A DNA stretch of 64,000 nt from Bradyrhizobium algeriense (GTDB lineage: Bacteria > Pseudomonadota > Alphaproteobacteria > Rhizobiales > Xanthobacteraceae), in contig NZ_PYCN01000011.1 of NCBI RefSeq assembly GCF_003062295.1, forward strand, positions 124,001-188,000. Reading direction: 5' to 3'. A model generated the notes under the pieces. The model was given only the letters and a program-made list of their open reading frames with translations, was not told the origin of the DNA and did not search any database. Position 1 is the first letter of the stretch. Every line of letters begins with the position of its first letter. Shown here one piece after another: positions 47,569 to 53,728 of this stretch. Made by a program: the position numbers and the translations under genes.

Positions 47569-47644
47569 GTAGCCCGGATGAGCGAAGCGATATCCGGGGC
47601 GGTGTTAGAGCGGTCCCGGATCTCGCTGCGCTCATCCGGGCTAC
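47569..47644. repeat. Palindromic repeat (GTAGCCCGGATGAGCG family)
   Basis: GTAGCCCGGATGAGCGAAGC and GCGCTCATCCGGGCTAC form long arms with the inner 'gatatccgggg' and 'cccggatctc' pair. It follows the previous repeat by 16 bases, so two different families are nested in one gap. Confidence 0.85.
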
Positions 47645-47699
47645 GAACTGAGTGTGCGGCTGCGATCTCGCGGCGCATTGCGTCCGAGGTTTGCATCTT

Positions 47700-48075
47700 C
47701 GTTTGCCCTCCTCGAAATAGAGGGCGCAGGGAAGACCGGGTGCTTGCTGCACCCGCGGTCTCGTGTGCAACGTGCACAGAAGAACACGCACACGAGCATA
47801 CAGGTACAGGCGGAGCATCCCGGCCTTCCCTGCGCAATGGCTTTACGGCTTACTTCGTGCTCTTCCCGGAGAACGGCTTTCTTGCCTCCGTCGCCCCCAA
47901 GAAGCTTGCTTCTCGAGAACTTAGCGCCAGCACCGCGGCGCCCGAACCACACGACTTCGCCGTACGCGTCCGGCGCGTACGTCTAGCGCGCCATCAGCGT
48001 CCATCGCATCTCACCGCACGTTCGTGACGATCGCGAGCGTCCCTCAATTGGGTGAGACGAGCGGAGTTATGCGAC
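47700..48075. repeat. Large dispersed repeat element, copy B (inverted relative to copy A)
   Basis: The reverse complement of this stretch matches copy A at 14566-15240. The core stem is GCGCAGGGAAGACCGG (47724-47739) pairing with CCGGCCTTCCCTGCGC (47820-47835). Inside it are 'tcgtgtgc' and 'gcacacga' and the hairpin GGGTGC-ttgct-GCACCC. Base changes between copies keep pairing in the stems. Flanking blocks such as 'gacggaggcaag' and 'tgtggttc' are also shared. No protein gene is convincing here. 48076-48353 holds the caspase promoter region. Confidence 0.7.
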
Positions 48076-48252
48076 TGATTTGCCCTGCAAGTTAAGCGGA
48101 ATATTTTTGCTTCCGGGGATTGACGCGATTTCGGAAAATCAGAAGTGATTTGCCTGTGGGAAGAACGTCGCCGCGACTTGCTCCACCGCTCGAACTGAAG
48201 CCGACATCGCGGTTGTGGCCAGGAGCTTCATTTTTGGACCAAACGACAGAGG

Positions 48253-48272
48253 AATGTGACTTAGGTCACATT
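48253..48272. promoter_or_regulatory. CRP/FNR-family operator-like palindrome
   Basis: AATGTGACTTAGGTCACATT has 8-bp perfect arms and contains TGTGA-N6-TCACA, the canonical CRP half-site arrangement. It lies 81 bases upstream of the caspase start at 48354. A regulator of the CRP/FNR superfamily is the natural reader; which one cannot be told. Confidence 0.65.
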
Positions 48273-48353
48273 AACCTCTCGGCATTCCTACGTATTGTGA
48301 CCGCTAAATTCGATGCTAGTGTCGGTTTTCATTGCCGATTTGGAAATTTTCTG

Positions 48354-50222
48354 ATGCGCGCGTTTTTGGGGGTGGTCCTCACGGCCTGGCTGACTTTGCT
48401 GGCTGGCCAGCCCGCGTTTGCCGAGAAGCGCGTGGCGCTGGTGATCGGCAATTCGGCCTACCGGAACGTGGCCAAGCTGAGTAATCCCACGAACGACGCG
48501 GCGGCTGTTGCGTCGATGTTCAAGTCCGCAGGCTTCGACACCGTCGAGTCCAAGCTGAACCTGACCGTCGGCGAGTTGCGCAAGACGCTGCGCGATTTCG
48601 GCAACAGGAGCCGCGATGCGGACGTCGCCGTTGTCTATTATGCCGGCCACGGCATCGAGCTTGATGGCACCAACTATCTGATTCCGGTCGACGCCACGCT
48701 CGAGACGGACGCGGATGTTCTGGACGAGACGCTGCCGCTCGACCGGGTGCTGTTCGCAGTCGAGCCGGCGAAGCAATTGCGGCTGGTGATCCTCGATGCG
48801 TGCCGGGACAACCCGTTCGCCAAAAACATGAAGCGAACGATTGCGTCCCGCGCGATCGGACGGGGATTGGCCAAGGTCGAGCCTTCGAGCCCCAACACCA
48901 TGATCGCCTTTGCGGCGAAGGCCGGATCGACCGCATCCGACGGCGACAGCAAGAACAGCCCGTTTGCGGCCGCGCTGGTCAATCATCTCGCCAAGCCCGG
49001 ACTTGATCTTCGCAAGGCATTTGGCTTCGTGCGCGACGATGTCTTGAAGGCAACAGGCAATGCGCAGGAGCCGTTTGTCTATGGTTCGTTGGGCGGCAAC
49101 GACGTGACGCTCGTGCCAGCCGCGCCTGCAGCCCCAGCCGCTCCAGCCGCCGCATCGACCGATCACGATGCCACCATGCAGCGGTACTACGAATTCGCAC
49201 TTCAGGTCGGCACCAAGCCGGTGTGGGATGCCTTCATCGAGAAATATCCGTCCGGCTTCTTTACGGCACTTGCCAAAGCGCAACGTGACAAGCTCGCGGC
49301 TGAAGCGGCACGGATCGAGGCCACCAACAAGGCCAAGGCTGCACAGGACGAGCAGGCACGACTCGCTATCGAAGGCGCTAAAGCCGCGGAACAGGCAAAG
49401 GCAGCCGAACAAGCCAAGGCGGCCGAAAAAGCACGCATCGCGGCCGAACAGGCGAAAAAGGCCGAAGAGGCGAAAGTAGCGGAAGCCGAGCGTGCGAAGG
49501 CCGCGGCAGAAGCAAAGCTTGCCGAAGCCGAGCGTGCGAAAGCAGCAGCAAAAGCCGCCGAGGAAGCAAAGGCTGCGGAGGCCGCGAGGTTGAAAGCCGC
49601 CGAAGTAGAAAAGGAGCCCGCTGCGAAGAGGGGAAGCGAGAGCAAAATCGCCGCGCTCACGCCGCCGGCCGACCAATCCGATCAGCCCAAGGCGATCGAC
49701 CTCCCTCGCTCCCTACAAGCCGAACTGCGGCGGGTCGGCTGCAACACCGGAGCGGTTGACGGGAACTGGAATGCGGCCTCGCAGCGGTCGCTCGATCTGT
49801 TCAACAAGCACACCGGGATGAAGCTGGAGGTCAAGGTTGCAAGTGTCGATGCACTCGATGTCGTCAGGAGCAAAACCACGCGCGTTTGCCCGCTGATTTG
49901 CGATCATGGGTTCAAGGCCGATGGCGATCGCTGCACGAAGATTACGTGTCGTGCTGGTTACGAGGTCGGCGACGACAACACGTGCGAAAAGATCGAGACG
50001 AAGAAGCCTACTGCAAAGCGCGAAGAACCGAGGGTGCAGCGCGACAAGCCAGAGCGCGGCAAGTTGGAATCGACCCCTTCGAAGCCGCAAGCCTCAGGCC
50101 AGATATTTTGTACCGGTCAGGGATGCAGGCCGGTAGGCAAAGGCTGTAGCATTCAAGTCGTGAGGCCCGGAGCGCCGGGATATGTCTCAGGCGCCAGCGG
50201 CCAGATCGAAGTCTGCAACTGA
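48354..50222 (+). CDS. Secreted caspase-fold protease (peptidase C14), first of a tandem pair
   Basis: This 622-aa protein starts at ATG 48354; the longer frame from 48120 covers the operator region. The signal peptide ends at AFA-EK. The caspase domain follows (residues 24-265) with 'RVALVIGNSAYRNVAKLSNP', His99 in 'YYAGHGIELDG' and Cys150 in 'VILDACRDNPF', a complete dyad. Next are a Pro/Ala linker, a helix 'YYEFALQVGTKPVWDAFIEKYPSGFF', and a long Lys/Ala/Glu coiled coil (about 325-440). A peptidoglycan-binding-like module ('LQAELRRVGCNTGAVDGNWN') and a Cys-rich tail (about 515-622, ten or more Cys) end the protein. Export plus Cys-rich tail suggests a periplasmic enzyme; substrates are unknown. 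Confidence 0.9.
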   Translation: MRAFLGVVLTAWLTLLAGQPAFAEKRVALVIGNSAYRNVAKLSNPTNDAAAVASMFKSAGFDTVESKLNLTVGELRKTLRDFGNRSRDADVAVVYYAGHGIELDGTNYLIPVDATLETDADVLDETLPLDRVLFAVEPAKQLRLVILDACRDNPFAKNMKRTIASRAIGRGLAKVEPSSPNTMIAFAAKAGSTASDGDSKNSPFAAALVNHLAKPGLDLRKAFGFVRDDVLKATGNAQEPFVYGSLGGNDVTLVPAAPAAPAAPAAASTDHDATMQRYYEFALQVGTKPVWDAFIEKYPSGFFTALAKAQRDKLAAEAARIEATNKAKAAQDEQARLAIEGAKAAEQAKAAEQAKAAEKARIAAEQAKKAEEAKVAEAERAKAAAEAKLAEAERAKAAAKAAEEAKAAEAARLKAAEVEKEPAAKRGSESKIAALTPPADQSDQPKAIDLPRSLQAELRRVGCNTGAVDGNWNAASQRSLDLFNKHTGMKLEVKVASVDALDVVRSKTTRVCPLICDHGFKADGDRCTKITCRAGYEVGDDNTCEKIETKKPTAKREEPRVQRDKPERGKLESTPSKPQASGQIFCTGQGCRPVGKGCSIQVVRPGAPGYVSGASGQIEVCN

Positions 50223-50285
50223 GCGGCTGACGAAGTGCGCGGTGTTTGGATCTAGGATTCGGTATGCCGATTTGAAAGTTTTTTG

Positions 50286-52130
50286 ATGCGCGCTTTGCTA
50301 AACATCTTTTTGACGGTCGGGTTCATTTTCCTGGCTAACCAGCCCGCGTTTGCCGAGAAGCGCGTGGCGCTGGTGATCGGCAATTCGGCCTACCGGAACG
50401 TCGCCAAGCTCAGCAATCCAGCGAACGACGCAGCAGCTGTTGCCGCGATGTTCAAGTCGGCAGGCTTTGACACCGTCGAGTCCAAACTGAACCTGACCGT
50501 TGGCGAGTTGCGCAAGACGCTGCGCGATTTCGGCAACAGGAGCCGCGACGCGGATGTCGCGGTTATCTATTATGCCGGGCACGGCATCGAGCTTGATGGC
50601 GCCAACTATCTCATCCCGGTCGACGCGACGCTTGAGACGGATACCGATGTGCTGGACGAGACGCTGTCGCTCGACCGTGTACTGGTTGCGGTCGAGCCGG
50701 CCAAGCAATTGCGGCTGGTGATCCTCGATGCCTGCCGGGACAATCCATTCGCAAAAAGCATGAAGCGGACGATCGCGTCGCGCGCGATCGGCCGGGGACT
50801 TGCCAAGGTCGAGCCTTCCAGCCCCAACACCATGATCGCATTTGCTGCGAAGGCCGGGTCGACCGCATCTGATGGCGATAGCAAAAATAGCCCGTTCGCG
50901 GCCGCGCTGGTCAATCATCTCGCGAAGCCCGGACTTGATCTGCGCAAGGCATTTGGCTTCGTGCGCGACGATGTCTTGAAGGCAACCGGCAATGCGCAGG
51001 AGCCGTTCGTGTACGGCTCGCTGGGTGGCAACGATGTAACGTTGGTCCCGGCCGCGCCTGCAGCGGTTGCTGCGCCGGCCGATCAGGACGCCACGATGCG
51101 GCGCGATTATGAGTTCGCGCTCCAGGTAGCAACCAAGCCCGTCTGGGATGCCTTCATCGAGAAGTATCCGTCAGGTTTTTATACAGCGCTCGCCAAAGCG
51201 CAGCGTGACAAGCTTGCTGCGGAAGCTGCGCGGATCGAAGCTACCAACAAGGCCAAGGCAGCCCAGGACGAGCAGGCGCGGCTCGCGATCGAAGGCGCCA
51301 AGGCCGCCGAACAGGCCAGGGCTGCGGAACAGGCGAAAGCCGCCGAGAAAGCCCGTGTCGCTGCCGAGCTGGCAAAAAAGGCTGAAGAGGCGAAAGTCGC
51401 GGAAGCCGAGCGCGCGAAGGCGGCTGCGCTTGCCAAGGCCGCCGAGAAGGAGGCTGAGCGCGTCAAGGCGGCCGAAGAAGCCAAGGCTGCTGCCGAGGCA
51501 AAAAAGGCTGCTGCAGACGCCAAAGGTGCTGCCGAAAAGAAGGCGAAGGAAGAAAAACTCGCCGCGTTAGCGCCGCCGGCGGACCAATCCGATCAGCCGA
51601 AGGCGATCGATCTTCCCCGCTCGCTCCAGGCCGAACTGCGGCGGGTCGGCTGCAACACCGGTGCGGTGGATGGAAACTGGAATGCGGCCTCGCAGCGCTC
51701 GCTCGATCTGTTCAACAAGCATGCGGGGATGAAGCTGGAGGTCAAGGTTGCGAGCGTCGATGCACTCGATGTCGTCAAGGGCAAGACGACGCGCGTTTGC
51801 CCACTGATTTGCGAGTTTGGTTACAAGGCTGACGGTGATCGCTGCACCAAGATTGCTTGCCGTGCTGGCTACGAGGCCGACGACGACGGAAGGTGCGAGA
51901 AAATCCGAACGAAGAAACCAACAACTAAGCGTGAAGATGCGCAGCCAAGACGCGATGTTCAGGACCGAGCGAAGACTGAAGTCGCGCCATCCAAGCCGCA
52001 GACTTCTTCAGGTCAGATGGTATGCAGTCAACAAGGTTGCAGACCGGTCGCTAAGGGATGCCGTCTAGTGTATGGTGTTGCCAGCCGTACTTACGGCAGT
52101 CCAGCAAACAACATCGAGGTTTGCAATTAA
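50286..52130 (+). CDS. Secreted caspase-fold protease, second of the tandem pair
   Basis: This 614-aa protein is a paralogue of the gene at 48354. The caspase domain is nearly identical, again with His99 and Cys150, as are the 'LQAELRRVGCNTGAVDGNWN' module and the Cys-rich end. Differences are concentrated in the signal peptide, in the linker after residue 260, in the coiled coil (repeat units lost and gained) and in the last 50 residues ('GQMVCSQQGCRPVAKGCRLVYG'). The leader bases before both ATGs are also alike ('tgccgatttg', then a T-run and TGATGCGCGC), so the tandem duplication included the leader. The gap between the genes is 63 bases, so co-transcription is likely. Confidence 0.9.
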   Translation: MRALLNIFLTVGFIFLANQPAFAEKRVALVIGNSAYRNVAKLSNPANDAAAVAAMFKSAGFDTVESKLNLTVGELRKTLRDFGNRSRDADVAVIYYAGHGIELDGANYLIPVDATLETDTDVLDETLSLDRVLVAVEPAKQLRLVILDACRDNPFAKSMKRTIASRAIGRGLAKVEPSSPNTMIAFAAKAGSTASDGDSKNSPFAAALVNHLAKPGLDLRKAFGFVRDDVLKATGNAQEPFVYGSLGGNDVTLVPAAPAAVAAPADQDATMRRDYEFALQVATKPVWDAFIEKYPSGFYTALAKAQRDKLAAEAARIEATNKAKAAQDEQARLAIEGAKAAEQARAAEQAKAAEKARVAAELAKKAEEAKVAEAERAKAAALAKAAEKEAERVKAAEEAKAAAEAKKAAADAKGAAEKKAKEEKLAALAPPADQSDQPKAIDLPRSLQAELRRVGCNTGAVDGNWNAASQRSLDLFNKHAGMKLEVKVASVDALDVVKGKTTRVCPLICEFGYKADGDRCTKIACRAGYEADDDGRCEKIRTKKPTTKREDAQPRRDVQDRAKTEVAPSKPQTSSGQMVCSQQGCRPVAKGCRLVYGVASRTYGSPANNIEVCN

Positions 52131-52229
52131 TGCTGTCGCCACCCGGACGCGGTGCAGCGGCTGCTGAGTGCCGTCGGATGTGTCTGGTTTGAAGTTTCGA
52201 TACTTAACGCTCTGATCGGGGGCTGTGTT

Positions 52230-52676
52230 GTGAAGATATTTTGTGCGGGATTTCTGGCGGCCTTCGTTCTCATGGCGCAGTCGGCGCCGGTCGCCCAAGC
52301 AGGCGTTGTTCTGATCACGCCGGAAGAAGCCCAGCTTCCCACGCCCAAAGGCGTTCATGCCGCTCGCGCCATCACCCGCGGTCCGCGTATCGACCTTGCC
52401 GGTCCTGATGCCAGCGAGGCGCGTTCCCCGCTACGTCTGCAACTCAAATTTCGGGGTTTCGGCGGTGCAACGATCAATCTCGACTCGCTTCGCGTGACTT
52501 ACCTGAAAATGCCGAACGTCGATCTGACGTCGAGAATAAGGCCTTATGCCCAGCCGACCGGCATCGAGATCCCGGACGCCGAAGCCCCGCCGGGCGAACA
52601 TCTGGTTCGCGTGGAAGTCCATGATTCCGAGGGACGACGCACGGCGACGACATTTTTGCTCAGCGTCGCACGCTAG
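52230..52676 (+). CDS. Small secreted beta-rich protein in the caspase operon
   Basis: This is a 148-aa protein. The start is GTG at 52230 after GGGGGCTGTGTT; the signal peptide (KIFCAGFLAAFVLMAQSAPVA) ends at AQA. The mature part looks like a single beta sandwich: 'SPLRLQLKFRGFGGATINLDSLRVTYL', then 'GIEIPDAEAPPGEHLVRVEVHDSEGRRTATTFLLSV', an Ig/PKD-like ending. It has no Cys in the mature region. No known family is recognised. It lies 99 bases after the second caspase and ten bases before the zinc-ribbon gene, so it is probably part of the operon, possibly a binding partner or inhibitor of the proteases. Confidence 0.7.
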   Translation: MKIFCAGFLAAFVLMAQSAPVAQAGVVLITPEEAQLPTPKGVHAARAITRGPRIDLAGPDASEARSPLRLQLKFRGFGGATINLDSLRVTYLKMPNVDLTSRIRPYAQPTGIEIPDAEAPPGEHLVRVEVHDSEGRRTATTFLLSVAR

Positions 52677-52686
52677 AAGGTCAGGG

Positions 52687-52890
52687 ATGCCGGAAACTTG
52701 CTTCTTTTGCAAAACGGAGAAGGATGACCATGCGCTCGTCTGCGCGGCCTGCGGACGGGATACGGCCGTTCCTTTGCCGCTGGCCGCCGAACATCAGGCG
52801 CTGTCGCAAAAGCGCGATCGCTTGCGGGCCGAGCTCGTTGAGGCAAAGGCCCGGCTCGAGTCGCGCCGGCGCAGGCCGATCCGCGCATGA
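52687..52890 (+). CDS. 67-aa zinc-ribbon/coiled-coil protein
   Basis: It encodes MPETCFFCKTEKDDHALVCA, then ACGRDTAVPLP and a charged helix 'ALSQKRDRLRAELVEAKARLE'. Two CxxC knuckles (CFFC and CAAC) form a zinc ribbon. 'DDHALVCAACGRD' closely matches 'DEALVCRHCSRD' in the next protein, so both share one ribbon type. There is no signal peptide, so it is cytoplasmic. The start overlaps no gene but lies ten bases after the previous stop. Confidence 0.75.
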   Translation: MPETCFFCKTEKDDHALVCAACGRDTAVPLPLAAEHQALSQKRDRLRAELVEAKARLESRRRRPIRA

Positions 52891-52960
52891 AGACTGATCC
52901 GGCAAGCCTCGCTCGAATGCTCATGGCGTTCCAATCTTCCACGGACCGACCGGCCGCCTG

Positions 52961-53728
52961 ATGGAATGTCCGTTCTGCGCCGAGACGATCAAGGACGAAG
53001 CTCTCGTCTGCAGGCATTGCAGCAGGGATCTCCGCGTCGTGCAGCCGATTGTGATCGAAAACCAGAACCTCGTGGCGGAGCTGGACCGGCTCCAGCGGGA
53101 GCTGGACCGGGTCAATACGCAACTCGCGTTCCTGGACCGTCCGGTTCACTTCGTGCTGCGGCATGCGGCGCTCTATGTCTTGATCCCATCACTTCTGTTG
53201 CTCGCCGCGCACATCGTTGTGACGATCCTGCTGGATGTTTCCGCAGTCTACCTGCGGATAGCTTCGGTGCTCATCCCGATTCCGTTCGGCGTGATGCTCT
53301 ACGCCGTCACCAAGATCGGGGTAAGGGGCGCCATCGGGTTTGGGATCGCCACGGCCTTCCTCAGCGTGACGGCCATGCTGATCACCATCGGAGTTGTCGA
53401 CAAGGTACCGATCCTGCCCGACAGCCTCCGCGAATGGCGCGAGGCCGTCGAATACGCGCTCAGTATCATGCTGGCCTATTTGACGGGAAATCTGCTGGTC
53501 ATGCTGATCCTTCGTTCGCTGCCGAATGCGATCGCGGCTTCAGGCCGCCCGAGTGCTGTAGCGGTGCGGCTCGCCCGGATGTTTGGCCAGCATGTGGGGC
53601 CGGACGTCATGCGCCGACGGGCGCGCCGGATACAGGAACTGATGAAAACCCTTGGCCCGCTCGCCGGCCTGTTGGTGACGGCCGGCGGATCGATTTACAC
53701 CGGGCTAAAAGGGGTGTTGGGGCACTGA
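52961..53728 (+). CDS. Zinc-ribbon, coiled-coil, multi-helix membrane protein
   Basis: This 255-aa protein begins MECPFCAETIKDEALVCRHC, a zinc ribbon (CPFC and CRHC). It is followed by a short coiled coil ('NLVAELDRLQRELDRVNTQLAFL'), then about four membrane helices ('YVLIPSLLLLAAHIVVTILL', 'IASVLIPIPFGVMLYAV', 'AIGFGIATAFLSVTAMLITIGVV', 'ALSIMLAYLTGNLLVMLIL'). A basic C-terminal part follows ('RRRARRIQELMKTLG') with a last amphipathic helix. It combines a cytoplasmic metal-binding sensor head with a membrane body. Shared ribbon sequence and position tie it to the caspase genes. No function is known. Confidence 0.8.
   Translation: MECPFCAETIKDEALVCRHCSRDLRVVQPIVIENQNLVAELDRLQRELDRVNTQLAFLDRPVHFVLRHAALYVLIPSLLLLAAHIVVTILLDVSAVYLRIASVLIPIPFGVMLYAVTKIGVRGAIGFGIATAFLSVTAMLITIGVVDKVPILPDSLREWREAVEYALSIMLAYLTGNLLVMLILRSLPNAIAASGRPSAVAVRLARMFGQHVGPDVMRRRARRIQELMKTLGPLAGLLVTAGGSIYTGLKGVLGH

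Follow-up and report, generated by a model that had tools for sequence, protein, structure and literature searches.

Recurrence of likely secreted caspases with the same Ig-like and zinc-ribbon membrane proteins points to an apparently undescribed envelope system in Bradyrhizobium relatives

Many bacterial caspase homologues have no known partner or pathway; PMC3501461 describes such homologues as numerous in Alphaproteobacteria, rhizobia included, and reports multi-metacaspase operons there. The window analysed here, a 64,000-nucleotide stretch of Bradyrhizobium algeriense DNA, contains two tandem caspase genes (casp1 and casp2), followed by genes for a small Ig-like protein (bsand), a short zinc-ribbon protein (zr67) and a zinc-ribbon membrane protein (zrTM), which raises the question of whether these genes act together and which of them belong to one another. 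We conclude that they very probably form a single functional system and that, as judged from gene neighbourhoods, its constant partners are the Ig-like protein and zrTM rather than the ribbon pair or the caspase pair.

The five genes lie on the + strand, separated by 63, 99, 10 and 70 bp (Table 1), in agreement with the co-directional arrangement with gaps of 10-99 bases given in the original prediction. Its start at 48253 precedes the likely casp1 ATG at 48354, while the mechanical ORF begins at a TTG at 48120. Scanning for promoters and terminators gave no signal exceeding that of shuffled sequences.

Table 1. Features of the five-gene locus, in window coordinates
Feature	Position	Strand	Description
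casp1	48354..50222	+	likely secreted C14 caspase, 622 aa
casp1 parts			caspase domain residues 25-244; H99/C150; Lys/Ala-rich stretch; Cys-rich tail
casp1 PG-binding-like module	49695-49994	+	sub-threshold match
casp2	50286..52130	+	casp1 paralogue, likely secreted C14 caspase, 614 aa, H99/C150
casp2 PG-binding-like module	51606-51905	+	
bsand	52230..52676	+	GTG start; likely secreted Ig-like beta-sandwich protein, 148 aa
bsand mature part	from about 52302	+	
bsand Arg50 codon	52377..52379	+	in conserved T-R-G-P of linker; candidate cleavage site
zr67	52687..52890	+	zinc-ribbon/coiled-coil protein, 67 aa; lineage-restricted accessory
zrTM	52961..53728	+	255 aa; zinc ribbon residues 1-25, coiled coil, four predicted TM helices, conserved C-terminal tail
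zrTM predicted periplasmic loop 2	53399..53458	+	residues 147-166; candidate docking site

Both window proteases match Peptidase_C14 (PF00656) at E 3.3e-36 and 2.5e-36 (125.6 and 126 bits against a cut-off of 21.4), share 85% identity and carry the catalytic histidine in YAGHG and the cysteine in LDACR, exactly at the positions that had been claimed for a paralogous pair with an intact dyad. Neither shows a CHAT match (PF12770) in a profile search at E 1. In casp1, casp2 and bsand alike, a hydropathy peak from residues 3-4 onward is the sole backing for signal peptides that were judged by eye; the secretion of these proteins is predicted. The nearest relatives of casp1 and casp2 elsewhere lie mostly away from a bsand-zr67-zrTM trio, and trio-free tandem caspase arrays also exist.

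As for the tail modules claimed for the caspases, the Lys/Ala-rich stretches and the Cys-rich tail are present, while the peptidoglycan-binding-like module is a sub-threshold match to PG_binding_1 (PF01471; cut-off 23 bits), scoring 13.4 bits (E 0.09) in the window and 22.2 bits (E 1.6e-4) in the module of one relative. That module, together with the full conservation of the CxxC cysteines across the aligned rows, would suit the earlier view of a secreted protease pair that remodels the envelope or peptidoglycan while the ribbons sense metal or redox state. We consider this improbable, given that the four TPR-CHAT proteases scanned, which occupy the same slot in relatives, have no PG-binding match at E 0.1 and that zr67 is not constant.

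The linkage of these genes was followed across genomes. Within the genus, zrTM has a match in 87 of 242 genomes, a count that includes the window. When a protease was searched for within 5 kb of each whole-genome locus with bsand, a separate zr67 and zrTM, a caspase-fold domain was found at 88 of 88, CHAT in 82 and C14 in six; in the named set, consisting of the best 80 of 103 loci and overlapping the whole-genome set, it was present at 79 of 80. At the 90 loci where bsand and zrTM are accompanied by a protease, the latter lies at a median distance of 31 bp and at most 1,519 bp away. Among the first 12 relatives, all with a caspase-fold protease at the trio, 11 have a conserved TPR-CHAT neighbour of about 1,140 aa (167.3-171.9 bits to PF12770 in the four scanned), and the remaining one has a TPR protein whose caspase domain is 49% identical. 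Near-full-length TPR-CHAT homologues of at least 66% identity, among 60 relatives, occur in exactly the 11 genomes with CHAT at the trio; G021 has a further paralogue (54% identity) located elsewhere, and the other matches listed at E <= 1e-60 are partial, with 45% identity or less. The His/Cys motifs are intact in 85 of 86 CHAT profile hits (ATHG and SACN; the remaining one is in a broken frame) and in 12 of 12 C14 proteins, and a hydrophobic stretch near the start is seen, by a crude measure, in only 68 of 82 CHAT frames.

Co-occurrence in related genomes, set beforehand as the test by which the original prediction could fail, was found in a broader form. The association of the zinc-ribbon membrane protein with caspase-fold proteases stands, the partner being mostly CHAT rather than C14, and a tandem pair is not required, most loci having a single TPR-CHAT. 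A system made of the window C14 pair plus the ribbons was rejected because the first 12 relatives have no close casp1 or casp2 homologue at the trio. The five-gene form itself occurs in two more genomes: in G111, where the site is syntenic, and in G162, where the flanks differ.

Outside the genus, the bsand-zrTM-protease core is found in other Alphaproteobacteria and in Variovorax. Nine of 12 sampled genomes with bsand own any C14 or CHAT match, and in eight of these nine at least one lies within 7 kb of bsand, against 0.12 expected; the sole C14 gene of G667 and both C14 genes of G1186 are at the bsand-zrTM locus. On plasmids, bsand was detected in two of 72,556 records, adjoining a CHAT gene both times. 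These observations bear on the simplest alternative, in which the trio has no functional link to the proteases and settled by chance beside multicopy caspase genes or in a common insertion hotspot. In its favour, the window genome has 14 C14 and three CHAT matches exceeding the cut-off, tandem arrays of caspases occur free of the trio, and the G012 syntenic site has a caspase and not the trio. Nevertheless, 17 genes in 8.9 Mb give odds of about 2% for one within 5 kb, compared with the 88 of 88 seen (related loci not being independent), and the adjacency persists where a genome owns just one or two of these genes, across several orientations and both protease families, making coincidence highly improbable.

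Exchange of the protease is also visible in a tree of 37 rows, which remained of 95 concatenated rows once CHAT-upstream rows at least 85% identical to a kept one had been dropped. The C14 trio loci do not form one clade (AU p = 0.004 with all 10 C14 rows, an untrimmed set; p = 0.007 with eight rows, a set trimmed of two long branches after these had been seen). Eight loci with missing or short parts were omitted (G018, G271, G184, G098, G076, G668 and the second loci of G156 and G087). On this phylogenetic evidence, CHAT and C14 swap at the same gene context, such that two caspase-fold families exchange within one neighbourhood.

There are exceptions. A MAG locus (L147) has a complete trio without a caspase-fold gene nearby, its bsand retaining the linker arginine discussed below, and zrTM fragments in G098 and G076 likewise have no such gene nearby; truncated or split zrTM copies are found at the second loci of G018, G156 and G228. 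Conversely, bsand adjoins CHAT on pS11L-1 and C14 in G087 at loci without zrTM, so that zrTM is dispensable for the pairing of protease and bsand, and distant bsand homologues adjoin trypsin-like proteases in G271, G683 and G727. A C14-like gene near the G683 bsand, suggested by a weak tblastn match (E 1e-8), was not recovered by the PF00656 search, and this locus was counted as trypsin only. Judged by gene content, bsand, which had a minor place in the original prediction, accompanies the proteases more consistently than any other gene.

The two ribbon proteins of the window do share the claimed ALVCxxCxRD motif (ALVCAACGRD and ALVCRHCSRD, one in each), and their zinc ribbon Pfam matches (PF13248/PF18912) fall below cut-off. 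The four CxxC cysteines are invariant in zrTM (12-row and 28-row alignments) and in nine zr67 rows aligned with the zrTM ribbon; the two knuckles of a zinc ribbon are thus present in both proteins, with metal binding putative. The idea of a matched pair does not extend across the family: a separate zr67 is seen in Bradyrhizobium, Afipia, Rhodopseudomonas and MAGs labelled Hyphomicrobiales, Xanthobacteraceae or Hyphomicrobiaceae, and was undetected in G605, G667, G1186 and Variovorax. The zr67 profile also matches zrTM's own ribbon, and G667 is therefore outside the count of 88 trios. A gap of 2 bp separates zr67 from zrTM at 58 of the 85 loci measured, and at 13 the two genes overlap by one base. 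Four hydropathy peaks and a moderate model (pLDDT 69.6) favour the four-helix membrane layout proposed for zrTM, while a fold search with this model returned nothing usable (best E 0.76). In the predicted periplasmic loop 147-166, seven of 20 positions are invariant over 28 rows, with a mean majority of 0.73 against 0.64 in TM1 and TM3 and 0.73-0.76 in TM4 and the cytoplasmic tail; since the loop is not more conserved than the latter, docking there is a guess.

The bsand model is an Ig-like beta-sandwich (pLDDT 87.3), in line with the small, likely secreted beta-sandwich protein originally described. Fold searches matched generic Ig-like folds only, with a best Foldseek E of 1.5e-3 and, in VIA, a top match to the C-terminal part of latent PorU (97 residues, rmsd 3.1, Z 8.0, a level that this tool calls common); Y_Y_Y matches appear in 11 of 36 bsand rows at E 0.1, the best at 0.0018. 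N-terminal to the sandwich, the linker is conserved yet modelled with lower confidence, and its arginine is kept in 101 of 109 homologues. The eight without it (G271, G683, G705, G727, G747, G819, G911 and the second copy of G1186) are at the same time the homologues that diverge most, and the pattern may therefore reflect distance alone. Orthocaspases are reported to cut after basic residues, Arg or Lys (PMC6426788).

Our main reading, to which we give a probability of roughly 45%, is an envelope proteolysis module in which bsand is acted on by the protease and zrTM passes the outcome to the cell interior. The protease, a caspase-fold cysteine peptidase (in the window the two tandem C14 caspases, in most relatives one TPR-CHAT), would be secreted and active in the periplasm with bsand as its dedicated Ig-like partner, either a substrate or a partner dependent on its activity. 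The most likely event would be a cut after the conserved arginine in the flexible N-terminal linker, making Arg50 the predicted substrate site. On its periplasmic face, zrTM would then recognise processed bsand, or a protease-bsand complex, and would pass this state through its four TM helices to its own cytoplasmic zinc ribbon and coiled coil, the zr67 ribbon joining this cytoplasmic part in the Bradyrhizobium group. zrTM may thus be the membrane protein through which extracytoplasmic proteolysis reports to the cell.

bsand might instead be a cognate Ig-fold inhibitor or guard that silences the protease until stress, with zrTM anchoring or sensing the complex. Chagasin (I42) is an Ig-fold inhibitor of papain-type cysteine proteases with its own loop motifs; it is absent among the 50 best rows of the Foldseek or VIA results for bsand, which excludes nothing. 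A small Ig-like gene adjoins each protease type, CHAT or C14 also without zrTM and trypsin-like ones too, as an inhibitor might, and PMC3501461 reports, for four Rhizobium strains, a metacaspase operon that combines protease functions with protease inhibition. Inhibition is nonetheless doubtful, as the conserved, less confidently modelled linker resembles a site to be cut and a single inhibitory surface is less likely to serve proteases whose folds are unrelated.

Unlikely, in turn, is that zrTM is a membrane-damaging effector freed by the protease, in a module that would bring about cell death or abortive infection much as gasdermins do, yet from the periplasmic side. The patchy distribution within the genus, the conserved hydrophobic C-terminal segment of zrTM and the caspase-gasdermin pairs known in bacteria (PMC9079055) would fit it, but the ribbon is predicted to lie on the opposite side of the membrane to protease and bsand, PADLOC gave the five window genes no match below E 0.001 other than to a generic caspase model, and no bsand match was found in 50,697 phage records.

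Returning to the relay from protease to zrTM, we suggest more tentatively a new kind of bacterial system: a caspase-fold protease in the periplasm would signal, by way of its own Ig-like ligand, to a zinc-ribbon receptor spanning the membrane, and CHAT, C14 and perhaps trypsin-like proteases may be interchangeable activators on a conserved ligand-receptor core. If true, Alpha- and Betaproteobacteria would possess a caspase cascade that crosses the inner membrane in the inward direction. The cassette in any case offers a testable partner set for likely secreted caspase homologues.

A search of the open literature (PMC) found no description of this cassette. The window proteases share the C14 domain and His/Cys dyad of prokaryotic orthocaspases and metacaspases, and the operon section of PMC3501461 names no operon that combines a secreted Ig-like protein with a zinc-ribbon protein of the membrane. 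With respect to EACC1-associated caspases and other caspase conflict systems (PMC8195603), the window proteases match the NCBIfam model caspase_w_EACC1 (NF047832) at 54.6 and 54.2 bits, below the cut-off of 140; no EACC1 partner is among the matches of the five genes, and the words "zinc ribbon" and "periplasm" are absent from the main text of that paper. Trypsin-nuclease pairs, which have repeatedly been recruited into bacterial immunity (PMC12799240), resemble the cassette in that protease and partner recur in otherwise unrelated contexts, but they have another protease and a nuclease partner.

Also comparable are bacterial gasdermin operons and Craspase (TPR-CHAT with Cas7-11), where a caspase-fold protease sits beside a dedicated partner and which share the TPR-CHAT layout of most relatives. 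Searches of the five window proteins against Pfam, NCBIfam and PADLOC returned no match named as a gasdermin, and PADLOC gave no Cas7-11/gRAMP match of type III-E Craspase. The proteases of those systems act inside the cell, whereas protease and Ig-like partner are here predicted to be periplasmic. PorU/gingipain-type peptidases, finally, have an attached Ig-like domain, the PorU peptidase belonging to clan CD and its C-terminal part being the top VIA match of bsand, while in the present cassette the Ig-like unit is a separate gene.

Across the genus, a caspase-fold protease, of either the C14 or the CHAT type, accompanies a trio consisting of bsand, a small Ig-like protein, zr67, a 67-aa zinc ribbon, and zrTM, a zinc-ribbon membrane protein. 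zrTM was detected in 13 of 60 relatives and, across the genus, in 87 of 242 genomes, both counts including the window's own 8.9-Mb genome. The neighbourhoods of all 87 were examined, 86 in a 95-locus table and that of G104 (CHAT, bsand, zr67, zrTM) separately. Six more genomes are in the table, and G087, G156 and G228 each contribute a second locus to it. Complete loci, with bsand, a separate zr67 and zrTM, make up 88 of the 95, and a caspase-fold protease domain lies within 5 kb in 88/88, being CHAT at 82 and C14 at 6. Where bsand, zrTM and a protease occur together (90 loci), the distance to the protease has a median of 31 bp and a maximum of 1,519 bp. The incomplete loci comprise G605 and G667 (bsand, zrTM and C14, without zr67), the second locus of G087 (bsand with C14), G668 (at a contig end, bsand adjoining CHAT and the zrTM start present), G271 (bsand only), and G098 and G076 (zrTM fragments without a protease). 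In a named set overlapping this table (the best 80 of 103, mostly Bradyrhizobium and Afipia), the protease is present at 79 of 80 loci. The one clear exception is a Hyphomicrobiales MAG, L147, whose full trio has no caspase-fold gene; by eye, clpP-like and lon-like genes flank it. In outline, the original prediction of one unit combining the caspase pair, the beta-sandwich protein and the two zinc-ribbon proteins is right.

In the window, the five genes run on the + strand with spacers of 63, 99, 10 and 70 bp. casp1 and casp2, 85% identical to each other, both match C14 caspases (E about 1e-36) and carry H99 and C150. The third gene encodes bsand (148 aa, likely secreted), whose mature form is modeled as an Ig-like sandwich with a pLDDT of 87.3, falling to about 68 in the linker region, 21-40. 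Next come zr67, with a ribbon and a coiled coil, and zrTM, which combines these two elements with four predicted TM helices. Signal peptides were called by eye, their sole computed backing being an N-terminal hydropathy peak, present in casp1, casp2 and bsand and also in 68 of 82 long CHAT frames. The 28-base element upstream of the caspases, which translates as SPDERSDIRG, is presumably a common Bradyrhizobium repeat. The caspase duplication unit seems to take in about 20 bases 5' of the second start, judging from an alignment edge common with G111.

Features and their coordinates
Feature	Location	Description
28-base element, two inverted copies	window 47571-47598 and 47615-47642	directly upstream of caspases; one mismatch each; shuffles expect 0
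Caspase duplication unit	window 47666-50222 and 50265-52133
Trio of the Hyphomicrobiales MAG	L147:5808-12400
Trypsin-C14-DUF4384 fusion, about 1,000 aa	L223:12354-15374; also L224, L225	alphaproteobacterial family
G1186 cluster	L261:7880-16401	two bsand, one zrTM, two different C14 proteins

G111 carries all five genes at the syntenic site, G162 has them in unchanged order between flanks unmatched to window 36001-64000, and the syntenic site of G012 (L242, G012:C90) holds a single caspase with no space for the trio; the five-gene arrangement therefore occurs in at least two contexts and can be missing. The trio of G012 is located elsewhere, beside a divergent TPR-caspase.

The usual protease is a TPR-CHAT protein of roughly 1,140 aa directly upstream of the trio, identified by PF12770 in four scanned proteins (E 7e-49 to 3e-50) and by our own CHAT profile in the remainder. 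Among 60 relatives, CHAT homologues of at least 66% identity over nearly full length occur in exactly the 11 genomes with CHAT adjoining the trio; this CHAT subfamily tracks the trio. The tandem C14 pair occurs at the trio in the window, G111 and G162. Divergent C14 proteins adjoin the trios of G012 (TPR-C14), G109 and Rhodopseudomonas pseudopalustris, the last with a second C14 farther upstream, and in G228 and L132 the C14 gene lies downstream on the same strand. A 37-row tree of bsand and zrTM supports each of these three C14 groups, and a single clade of all C14 loci is rejected by an AU test, with p = 0.004 (all 10 rows) and 0.007 (minus two long branches); given the long branches, this supports rather than proves that the C14 loci are not one clade. 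Elsewhere, caspases of the window type occur in multiple copies, most of which have no linkage to the trio. Two- or three-member arrays of this type lie distant from any zrTM match in G002, G005, G007, G011, G013, G017, G021 and G027; its tandem duplication is thus frequent in the genus.

Sampling 397 genomes from the order, 385 from the class and 378 from the phylum turned up 12 genomes outside the genus that carry bsand. C14/CHAT matches are present in nine of them, and in eight of the nine at least one such match lies within 7 kb of bsand (0.12 expected); in the ninth, G747, bsand is close to a contig end. The only C14 gene of G667 and both of those of G1186 sit at the bsand locus, and the G1186 cluster is followed by genes that by eye are histidine kinase-like and response regulator-like. 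Three genomes of one family have the trypsin-C14-DUF4384 fusion about 3.4 kb from bsand, identified by Pfam in one and by 62% identity in the other two; the neighbours of these fusion genes are another conserved gene, of 518 aa, and a distantly related bsand. In G271, G683 and G727, the three genomes with no C14 or CHAT match, trypsin-like proteases lie close to bsand. L226 and L227 share the order trypsin-like protease, DUF4384 protein, lipoprotein-like gene (by eye) and distantly related bsand, and may represent a relative of the module based on trypsin. Two of 72,556 plasmid records match bsand, both with CHAT adjoining: Variovorax paradoxus CP063167.1, whose zinc-ribbon protein QRF62644.1 is matched by the zrTM profile, and pS11L-1, a conjugative plasmid of Bradyrhizobium japonicum, where the nearby annotation has no zinc-ribbon gene. 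No bsand match was found in 50,697 phage records.

Because bsand pairs with CHAT or C14 also without zrTM, we take protease and bsand as the core, with zrTM as a relay at the membrane and zr67 as a lineage-restricted addition. The prediction does not hold as to which parts are essential; at most loci, CHAT takes the place of the C14 pair. The His/Cys motifs are intact in 85 of 86 CHAT matches, the remaining one being a broken frame, and in 12/12 C14 proteins. Three basic linker residues of bsand are conserved over 36 rows (K 34, R 35, R 36), and the Arg of its T-R-G-P stretch is present in 101 of 109. The eight lacking it diverge the most: trypsin-like proteases accompany three of them and the fusion another three, that of G747 has neither, and the last is the second G1186 copy, beside C14. 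The L147 protein, without a protease nearby, retains this Arg. The predicted periplasmic loop of zrTM exceeds TM1 and TM3 in conservation but does not exceed the cytoplasmic tail. In the putative mechanism, the protease would cleave or bind bsand, zrTM would read the result, and the output would arise inside the cell.

The gene module is real and conserved, and it most likely belongs to the envelope, with a putative function. It is apparently undescribed: the operon section of a 2012 metacaspase operon survey (PMC3501461) names no such gene set, and no description of the cassette was found in the open PMC text searched. The protease of the module belongs to known families, C14 or CHAT. As far as tested, no match to a gasdermin, Craspase or EACC1 system came up for the five window genes.
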